A stretch of 46,463 bases of DNA from Deltaproteobacteria bacterium. Lineage in GTDB: Bacteria; Desulfobacterota; Syntrophia; Syntrophales; UBA2210. The notes beneath the pieces are model-generated. The model did no database searches and had not been told where the DNA came from. It saw only the letters and a program-made list of their open reading frames with translations. The number at the start of each line of letters is the position of its first letter. The first letter of the stretch is position 1. A program made the position numbers and the translations under genes. This document shows, piece by piece, positions 4,132 to 46,282 of this stretch. The stretch spans positions 1 through 46,463 of the forward strand of contig JAFDBG010000012.1 of the NCBI GenBank assembly GCA_019313385.1. Direction: 5' to 3'.

Positions 4132-6021
4132 ATGAAAAATTTTTATATCACCACACCCATATATTATGTGAACGCATCTCCGCATATAGGACACGCGTAT
4201 ACCACCATAGTAGCCGATATCATGGCACGATTCCACAGAATGTCTGGATACAGGTCTTATTTTCTGACCGGCACTGATGAGCATGGAGACAAGGTCGCGG
4301 AGGCGGCCAAACAGGCCGGTGAAACCCCTCAGGCTTATGCGGACAGGATAAGCGGAAAATTCAGGGCCCTTTGGCCTGAGCTTTCGATAACCAATGACTA
4401 TTTTGTAAGGACAACGGATAAAGACCATATAGAAGTGGTCAGATCAATACTACAGAAGGTATATGACTCGGGGGACATATATTTCGGTGAATACGAGGGG
4501 CATTATTGCGTGGGATGTGAGCGATTCTACAGAGAAAGCGAGCTGGTGGATGGGATGTGCCCCGATCACCACACGGTTCCCGAGACCAGGAAAGAAAGTA
4601 ATTATTTTTTCAGGATGGGTAAATACCAGGACTGGCTGATTGGGCATATTCAGGATAACCCTGACTTTATCAGGCCGGAGAGATACAGAAATGAGGTGCT
4701 CGCCTTTTTGAGAGAACCGCTCGAAGACCTCTGCATATCAAGACCCAAAACAAGACTGACATGGGGTATAACTCTCCCCTTTGATGAAAATTATGTGACC
4801 TATGTATGGTTTGATGCGCTGATAAATTATCTGACGGGAATAGGATATCCCGACAGTGAGAAATTTAAAACCTTCTGGCCCAACTCTCAGCACCTGATCG
4901 CCAAGGATATCCTCAAGCCACATGGTATCTACTGGCCCACCATGCTGAAAGGGGCGGGGGTAGAGCCTTATCAGCATCTGAACGTGCATGGGTACTGGAA
5001 CGTTGACCGGAACAAGATGTCGAAAAGCCGTGGGACTGTGGTAAACCCCCTCGATCTGAAGGACAAGTATGGTCTGGATGCGTTTCGATATTTCCTCATG
5101 AGAGATATGGTCTTCGGTCTTGATTCTAACTTCAGCGAGGACGCCTTTGTTCAGAGAATAAACTCCGATCTGGCGAATGACTTGGGAAACCTGGTCAGCA
5201 GGTCTCTCTCAATGGCGGTGAAATACTGTGATGGCCGGGTGCCCGGAGCAGTTAACCATCCTGATGATGCTCCCCTTATCGAAAGAGCGGCAAAACTCTT
5301 TCCCGAAATGGAAATATCTTTCCAGTCTCTGGAGTTTCATAAGGCCCTGATTTCCATATGGGACTTTATCAACATGACAAACAGATACATAGTGGAACGG
5401 GAACCCTGGTCCCTGGCCAAAGACCCTTCTTCCAAAACAAGGCTGGACACTGTTATCTACAATATACTGGAGGCGCTTCGTATTACCGCCATCCTGCTCC
5501 TTCCCTTTATGCCCGATTCCGCCGGGGACATCTTGACCAGACTCGGCATAAAGGATATTGAATCTCAGGGCTTTGACAGTGTACGCGCGTGGGGTGGCCT
5601 TTCGAAGGGCAATGTCCTAACTCGCGGCAAATCCCTGTTCCCCCGTGTGGAACATGAAAAGCCCGAGGATACGCCAGCGGCAGGGCTTACAGATATAAAG
5701 GAAGAGATATCCTTCCAGGATTTTGAGAAGATCGATCTGCGAGTAGCGCGGGTGGTCAAGGCCGAAAGGGTAAAAAAATCAGACAAGCTGTTGAAGCTGA
5801 AGATTGACGTAGGCGAAGAGAGAACCATCGTCGCTGGGATCGGCAAAAGCTACAGGCCTGAAGATCTTGTAGGAAAGAAGATAACTGTCATACTTAACCT
5901 GAAGCCGGTAAAACTGATGGGGGTGAAATCACACGGTATGCTCCTGGCAGCGGACGCGGGAGAAAAGGTTTCTTTAGTGTCCTTCGATGGCGATGCCGAT
6001 GTAGGAGCAAAGATAGGTTAA
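4132..6021 (+). CDS. metG: methionyl-tRNA synthetase with C-terminal tRNA-binding domain
   Basis: HIGHAYTTI (HIGH), KMSKSRG, C-terminal FEKIDLRVARVVKAE...; ATG at 4132. Confidence 0.97.
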   Translation: MKNFYITTPIYYVNASPHIGHAYTTIVADIMARFHRMSGYRSYFLTGTDEHGDKVAEAAKQAGETPQAYADRISGKFRALWPELSITNDYFVRTTDKDHIEVVRSILQKVYDSGDIYFGEYEGHYCVGCERFYRESELVDGMCPDHHTVPETRKESNYFFRMGKYQDWLIGHIQDNPDFIRPERYRNEVLAFLREPLEDLCISRPKTRLTWGITLPFDENYVTYVWFDALINYLTGIGYPDSEKFKTFWPNSQHLIAKDILKPHGIYWPTMLKGAGVEPYQHLNVHGYWNVDRNKMSKSRGTVVNPLDLKDKYGLDAFRYFLMRDMVFGLDSNFSEDAFVQRINSDLANDLGNLVSRSLSMAVKYCDGRVPGAVNHPDDAPLIERAAKLFPEMEISFQSLEFHKALISIWDFINMTNRYIVEREPWSLAKDPSSKTRLDTVIYNILEALRITAILLLPFMPDSAGDILTRLGIKDIESQGFDSVRAWGGLSKGNVLTRGKSLFPRVEHEKPEDTPAAGLTDIKEEISFQDFEKIDLRVARVVKAERVKKSDKLLKLKIDVGEERTIVAGIGKSYRPEDLVGKKITVILNLKPVKLMGVKSHGMLLAADAGEKVSLVSFDGDADVGAKIG

Positions 6022-6044
6022 TACGTCTGTCGACCGCGCAGGAG

Positions 6045-45366: not shown

Positions 45367-45414
45367 CCGGTAAATATTTCGGTACCTACGTGGACAGATC
45401 AGAGCAGACCTGCC
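45361..45414 (-). promoter_or_regulatory. trp attenuator 1:2 hairpin and 2:3 antiterminator region
   Basis: 1:2 = ggcaggtc-tgctct-gatctg(t)cc (45414-45392); 2:3 = ccacg-ta-ggta...tacc-ggc-cgtgg (45393-45361), competing with the terminator for cgtgg. Confidence 0.75.
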
Positions 45415-45454
45415 ACCACCAGAAAAACCTGTTTTTTATTTCAAAATGCACCAT
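45386..45454 (-). CDS. trpL: trp leader peptide MVHFEIKNRFFWWWQVCSDLST
   Basis: 22-aa ORF with three tandem TGG codons (45413-45421) directly before mutually exclusive hairpins and a terminator upstream of trpB2. Confidence 0.85.
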   Translation of the reverse strand: MVHFEIKNRFFWWWQVCSDLST

Positions 45455-45601: not shown

Positions 45602-46282
45602 ATGGAAAAATACGATATAAGAAAATATATAGAAAAATATATCCCATCAAAACAAACCGTAAAAAGAGCGGCAGTGACCGGTTTAGCAGCACTAACAATT
45701 ACCACAGCAACAGCAACCCTTACAGGATGTCCTCATGCAAACCAATCCCCAGGCGCGTATGACAGCCTTGACATTGACAGCGGAGGCGGTTGTTGTTTCC
45801 CAGCAGGCACCAAAATTTCAATGTCCGACAACTCTCTAAAAAATGTCGAAGACGTCCAAGCCGGAGACACCGTAATAAGTTTCGACGAAGAAAACAAAAA
45901 ACTAGTCAACGCAAAAGTTCTGGAAGTCGAGTCCCCAATCCGAGACCACATCTGCACAATATCTTTCGATAACGGAGAAAAGCTAGACATCACAGACGAC
46001 CATCCCATCTTCACAAAAGACGGCTGGAAATCAATCAATCCAGAAGCAACCCTAAAAGGCGGGCGATACAAAATACCAGTAACAAAACTAGAAGAAGGAG
46101 ACGAAGCCTTCTGCATTAATGGAAACTATATGAAAATCTTAGATATCAAAAAAGAAATGAAAAAAACCCAAACCTTCACTCTGAAATATGTTGATAAATT
46201 TCATAACTTCTTCGCCGATAATGTTTTAGCACATAATTGCGGCGGAGGCGGAGGCGGCGGAAGCGGCGGCGGCGGACAATAA
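45602..46282 (+). CDS. predicted lipoprotein with minimal Hint/intein-like domain and Gly-rich C-terminal tail
   Basis: Lipobox ATLTGC; CFPAGTKISMSDNSLKNVEDVQAGDTVISFD (block A), LDITDDHPIFT (block B), VDKFHNFFADNVLAHNC (blocks F/G), then GGGGGGGSGGGGQ. ATG at 45602. Confidence 0.87.
   Translation: MEKYDIRKYIEKYIPSKQTVKRAAVTGLAALTITTATATLTGCPHANQSPGAYDSLDIDSGGGCCFPAGTKISMSDNSLKNVEDVQAGDTVISFDEENKKLVNAKVLEVESPIRDHICTISFDNGEKLDITDDHPIFTKDGWKSINPEATLKGGRYKIPVTKLEEGDEAFCINGNYMKILDIKKEMKKTQTFTLKYVDKFHNFFADNVLAHNCGGGGGGGSGGGGQ

Follow-up and report, generated by a model that had tools for sequence, protein, structure and literature searches.

What could a Hint domain do at the very end of a predicted lipoprotein, where only a short Gly-rich tail follows it? 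Known forms of the Hint domain are the selfish inteins, the processors of hedgehog proteins and the BIL domains, which mainly cleave. The question is raised by P0001, the protein encoded by an ORF at 45602-46282 (+) of the window (the whole stretch of DNA analysed here, 46,463 nucleotides of contig JAFDBG010000012.1 from a Deltaproteobacteria bacterium). The following features were assigned to it.

45602..46282, + strand: whole gene, predicted lipoprotein of 226 aa with a C-terminal Hint domain
45602..45727, + strand: predicted export signal, residues 1-42, with the lipobox LTG ahead of Cys43 (lipobox pattern)
45728..45793, + strand: putative mature N-extein, residues 43-64 (CPHANQSPGAYDSLDIDSGGGC), 22 aa (translation)
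45794..46237, + strand: Hint domain, residues 65-212, long (phage-type) form (Pfam, NCBIfam, AF2, Foldseek)
45794..45796, + strand: Cys65, the Cys1 nucleophile of the Hint domain (aligned to profile position 1; invariant in the alignment)
45992..46003, + strand: block B, T131-D-D-H134 (alignment)
46232..46237, + strand: block G, His211-Asn212 (alignment)
46238..46279, + strand: C-extein, Cys213 (+1) and the Gly-rich tail CGGGGGGGSGGGGQ, disordered in the model (pLDDT)

The translation is identical to that of a first-pass annotation made from the sequence alone, and ORF, lipobox, Cys43, Cys65, HN with the following Cys, and tail are as described there. Its Hint boundaries (148 codons, 45794-46237) are right, and a domain of 148 aa indeed leaves no room for a homing endonuclease. 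The 22-residue linker terminates in GGGC64 directly ahead of Cys65, and the residue preceding Cys65 is thus likewise a Cys. The C-extein is as short and Gly-rich as had been claimed: 11 of its 14 residues are Gly, the last residue is Q, and the stop codon follows.

P0001 was the sole match in a search of its own assembly, which consists of 138 contigs, and its gene stops 181 bp short of the contig end. For residues 1-63, neither Pfam nor a search of plasmids returned any relative, and PADLOC gave no match. The gene's divergently oriented neighbour, on the minus strand, is a trpB-like gene. Ahead of the latter, a leader peptide (MVHFEIKNRFFWWWQVCSDLST, 45386-45454 (-)) is followed by terminator-like hairpins at 45368-45343 and 45328-45298. 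This arrangement looks like a classic trp attenuator; Rfam gave no match.

The Pfam models Hint (6e-10) and Intein_splicing (3.7e-9) both exceeded their gathering scores, and position 1 of the NCBIfam model intein_Nterm aligned to residue 65, with 24.2 bits vs a cut-off of 24.5. An AlphaFold model, with 26 Hint sequences from the relatives' loci as input, reached a pLDDT >90 across most of residues 64-213. Confidence was low in the signal and the tail (pLDDT <50 for residues 217-226). The top Foldseek match was Tetrahymena BIL2 (6y75, E 1.3e-13, TM 0.89 by target length), and the next solved folds were a C. thermocellum BIL, the DnaB and gp41-1 mini-inteins and hedgehog (1at0). The Hint domain proposed by the first-pass annotation was thereby confirmed. 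The residues that it had named as needed for splicing or cleavage are all present as well: C65, TDDH, H211-N212 and C213 make up a complete class-1 set. By its profile matches and its modelled beta fold, together with Cys1, block-B TxxH and the His-Asn end, P0001 is a member of the Hint superfamily. Fold, intact residue set and extreme C-terminal position of the domain are directly established.

The long-form Hint subfamily, comprising P0001 and the phage protein L064, has a further likeness. In these two proteins the Pfam model AXH beats every Hint model (6e-11 and 2e-13, above gathering). The match covers the N-terminal ~110 residues (45791-46120 in the window; 5716-6036(-) in L064), and GWxS..PExT...KLxxGD is common to AXH of ataxin-1/HBP1 and to both Hint domains. 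With a two-sequence profile of the subfamily, ataxin-1 chains were retrieved at 2e-9 and HBP1 at 9e-5, and among 297 genomes of the phylum only P0001 had an AXH match. When the isolated N-terminal Hint part was used in Foldseek, AXH structures were listed among inteins and BILs, all with low TM-scores. Sequence and model suggest that AXH may be homologous to the N-terminal part of Hint, a tentative reading in view of the poor TM-scores obtained with the half-domain model. We found no paper in the open-access literature that states such a homology.

Upstream of the Hint domain, P0001 carries what defines a bacterial lipoprotein, a signal with a lipobox: the pattern matched ITTATATLTGC with Cys43, though the h-region is weak. 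Since its hydrophobicity (KD15) is 1.43 vs 2.4-3.2 in relatives, export of P0001 and lipidation at Cys43 are predictions only, and it is as a prediction that the lipoprotein assignment of the first-pass annotation stands. The KR pair and the long n-region of the signal might also suit Tat.

Relatives were sought in genomes of the genus, family, order and phylum (class-level and order-level searches covered an identical 155 genomes) and, with a single genome for each GTDB species, by the DNA pattern [AV]HNCGGGG. The majority of HNCGGGG matches were due to chance or to Gly-rich proteins without a Hint domain, and GTDB genomes scanned for peptide patterns of P0001 gave no relative. In the same phylum (Thermodesulfobacteriota, which is Desulfobacterota in GTDB), a sparse set of exported proteins was found in which the Hint domain comes last and is followed by HN(C/S/T), a very short Gly-rich tail and the stop.

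L002: from the genus of P0001; coiled-coil-like N-terminal part; HN then SCGGGDGDGDGDITK, with Ser at +1
L079-L081: from the family of P0001; signal, FecR and a coiled-coil-like part; HN then SCGGGGNK or SSGGGGNK
L104: exported Hint protein; HN then TGGGGK
L027: lipobox; HN then CGGGGGGGK
L042: lipobox; HN then CGGGGK
L025: fragment; HN then CGGGGK

Exported proteins with the nucleophile and Gly tail of P0001, the homologs that the first-pass annotation had proposed to look for, therefore exist (L002, L027, L042, L079-L081, L104). They are scattered: a short-tail Hint gene is present in 5 of the 19 genomes of P0001's GTDB family, and in an even sample of the phylum (395 genomes) only in those of P0001 and L042. 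An orthologue of P0001 was absent from the six other genomes of its genus, where only G002 has a different short-tail Hint. The closest relative found is a phage protein with 41% identity, and no close orthologue was detected. Conservation of the splicing residues held in part. Short-tail members with intact HN have a nucleophile (C/S/T) at +1, except L125, which terminates in HNK-stop. Block-B TxxH, in contrast, has become TxxE in L027, L079-L081 (TGTE in L079) and L104 (TAGE), with Cys1, HN and the +1 nucleophile retained, and the degenerate L105 has kept the Hint domain but lost HN and tail.

In three genomes of different groups and genera (L231, L232, L233) a Sel1-repeat gene adjoins the short-tail Hint gene, and two of the three Sel1 neighbours contain the peptidoglycan-binding domain PG_binding_1. 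Sel1-repeat proteins are a possible functional partner of short-tail Hints. For P0001 itself this partnership was rejected, as its genome had no Sel1 match; the L002 locus likewise had no Sel1 gene. A C-terminal Lys as in Braun lipoprotein, suggested by the many relatives ending in K, was also discarded as a general feature, because the last residue is Q in P0001 and either S or G in the phage members.

In a maximum-likelihood tree of 76 Hint cores, the P0001 Hint groups with the phage protein L064/L100 (support 99/95), while six other short-tail proteins form a clade of their own (99/95). A grouping of P0001 with L002 from the same genus was rejected by the tree. The phage tail-region protein (L064/L109) ends in HNCGGGGSGS (LAHNCGGGGSGS), and a second contig has LAHNCGGG. 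Two genes away from L064 lies the gene of a Baseplate_J-like protein, whose match (E 4e-4) fell slightly short of the cut-off. Because P0001 pairs with a phage Hint and the other short-tail proteins are separate, the ending is present in two Hint branches; +1 nucleophile and short Gly tail in both are directly established. From the sequences, the order of Hint, nucleophile, Gly tail and stop would have either arisen twice or persisted in two distant branches.

Where HN is intact in short-tail members, position +1 is occupied by C in P0001, L064/L109, L027, L042 and L025 (of which L025, L027 and L064 came from the pattern requiring Cys at +1), S in L002 and L079-L081, and T in L104. Tim44-type exported Hints of the same phylum have Lys at +1 in 31 of 31 domains, in a survey without pattern bias; the Tim44 domain of these proteins was confirmed at 3e-22. 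Counted per genome with pattern matches excluded, a nucleophile vs another residue at +1 was found 6:1 for short-tail and 0:12 for Tim44-type Hints (Fisher p 3e-4, uncorrected for ancestry and, because the lineages are related, merely indicative). Scanning viral contigs for HNKGGGG, a pattern that itself fixes Lys at +1, yielded 67 true Hint ends, mostly continuing into long virion sequence; none of the seven viral HN[ST]GGGGG matches was a Hint.

Two architectures recurred in these surveys. The exported proteins L003, L012, L014-L016, L102, L114, L116, L118 and L121 carry between two and four Hints in tandem, all of them ending in HN-K, ahead of a membrane span and Tim44-like domains. L159-L227 include many phage virion-type Hint proteins with HNKGGGG after the Hint domain, often in tandem. 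A near-stand-alone lipoprotein Hint had been called unusual in the first-pass annotation; Gly-linked exported Hints are not rare as such, as these phage virion and Tim44 proteins illustrate.

P0001 probably trims or joins itself, because all splicing residues are present and the ending recurs in two Hint branches. The single likeliest explanation, which we hold tentatively and put somewhat short of an even chance, is self-splicing of P0001 as the precursor of an envelope lipoprotein. Predicted export and lipidation at Cys43 would come first. In an N-S acyl shift, the bond between C64 and C65 would then be attacked by Cys65; transfer of the acyl group to Cys213 would follow, and cyclisation of Asn212 would free the 148-aa Hint domain. 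The product would be a lipid-anchored peptide of ~36 residues, CPHANQSPGAYDSLDIDSGGGC-CGGGGGGGSGGGGQ, most simply pictured, as a guess, as a flexible tether at the surface. For P0001 we infer the occurrence of the reaction, its order and its product, as well as export and lipidation. BIL domains without a +1 nucleophile mostly cleave (PMC7664689), and since P0001 has kept this nucleophile, we argue for a use of the transfer step. Against splicing stand the block-B Glu in L027/L079-L081/L104, the loss of HN and tail in L105 and the HNK-stop in L125. The 36-residue product has no evident function, a plain disordered linker would look like the Gly tail, and both branches could simply retain an ancestral nucleophile.

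The flanks may also stay unjoined, in BIL- or hedgehog-like cleavage or conjugation, the chief alternative to splicing. The Cys65 thioester would then be passed to an outside envelope nucleophile or hydrolysed, by which the lipid-anchored N-terminal part would be fixed or released, and Asn212 would free the tail. We regard this as possible, if on the doubtful side. The nearest solved fold, Tetrahymena BIL2, is reported to form an isopeptide bond with lysine (PMC8616854), BIL domains mainly cleave (PMC7664689, PMC7765530), and envelope modules (lipoprotein coiled coils, FecR) make up the N-terminal parts of the relatives. The adjacent Sel1 or Sel1/peptidoglycan-binding gene in three genera looks as if envelope anchoring mattered, yet it is this partner that is missing from the genome of P0001 and the L002 locus. 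Moreover, such chemistry could dispense with the +1 nucleophile, yet every short-tail exported member with intact HN has one, except L125. A relic is unlikely: a phage-virion-type Hint, captured behind a lipoprotein signal, would be folded but non-processing, and the Gly tail would be a linker remnant. The clustering with a phage Hint, the GC content of the gene (42.7% vs 49.4% in the window) and the single sporadic copy, absent as an orthologue from the rest of the genus, are consistent with this, and the decayed L105 demonstrates such loss; in several relatives, the block-B His is Glu. However, every catalytic position of P0001 is intact at only 41% identity to its nearest relative, which would be unexpected without constraint, and it has an intact ORF and a Hint fold predicted with high confidence.

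An ordinary intein within a short host protein would account for the class-1 residue set and the mini-intein size, yet its exteins would have 22 and 14 residues, no relatives of residues 1-63 came up in Pfam or on plasmids, an endonuclease is lacking and export is predicted; we consider it very improbable. Equally improbable is a truncated polymorphic toxin, in which a Hint normally placed ahead of a toxin tip has lost this tip. The PT-HINT model of Pfam scores P0001 just under its cut-off, and the plasmid matches are polymorphic-toxin Hints, but no toxin domain follows the Hint, the 181 bp up to the contig end contain no ORF, and short-tail relatives with known downstream genes have no toxin domain there.

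If P0001 does splice, splicing or ligation would serve envelope maturation, by means of a small dedicated lipoprotein with a complete splicing set. A wider proposal, which we consider rather unlikely as a whole, is that extracytoplasmic splicing or ligation is a form of envelope maturation: single-Hint lipoproteins, FecR proteins and some phage tail proteins would keep the +1 nucleophile, and self-removal of the Hint would leave a Gly-tailed membrane-anchored product, or the anchored part would pass to a partner. With 226 aa, P0001 is a compact system for direct tests of Hint chemistry outside the cytoplasm.

In the open-access literature we found neither solo Hint lipoproteins nor a combination of Hint and FecR described. 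P0001 matches neither the definition of an intein nor that of an A-type BIL. It has the +1 nucleophile of an intein (Cys213) but lies outside the intein definition because there is no host protein, that is, no conserved protein with intein-free homologues, around its flanks of 22 and 14 residues. A-type BILs are defined by a missing +1 nucleophile (PMC7664689); they end in His-Asn and reside in proteins that are not conserved and are often exported (PMC7765530). P0001 has the HN end, relative-less flanks and predicted export; it is not an A-type BIL because its +1 nucleophile is present. A polymorphic toxin Hint would precede more than a 14-residue Gly-rich tail, and the N-terminal signalling domain and sterol-recognition region of hedgehog/Hog proteins are absent from its 226 aa.

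BILs and class 1 MafB proteins share with P0001 the Hint fold, Cys1 and the His-Asn end within exported variable proteins. BILs, however, have no +1 nucleophile and are embedded in larger proteins, whereas Cys+1 of P0001 begins a tail of only 14 residues. BIL2 of Tetrahymena BUBL1 (6y75, 6tmm) is the nearest in solved fold, with 26% identity, but is eukaryotic, flanked by ubiquitin-like domains and reported to conjugate to lysine and to be activated by zinc. Class-1 mini-inteins (Ssp DnaB, gp41-1) agree in all catalytic positions and in their endonuclease-free size; unlike them, P0001 has no conserved host protein and no functional C-extein domain, and is predicted to be exported. Phage virion Hints (HNKGGGG) and L064/L109 have the long-form Hint and the Gly linker in common with P0001, and L064 also has C+1 and the terminal position at 41% identity, whereas the phage Hints found by the HNK pattern have Lys+1 and mostly run into a large virion protein. 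The exported Desulfobacterota Hints (L002, L027, L042, L079-L081, L104) resemble P0001 in export signal, C-terminal Hint and HN(C/S/T)-Gly tail, but form a separate clade with longer N-terminal parts (coiled coil, FecR), mostly a final Lys and, in several, TxxE.
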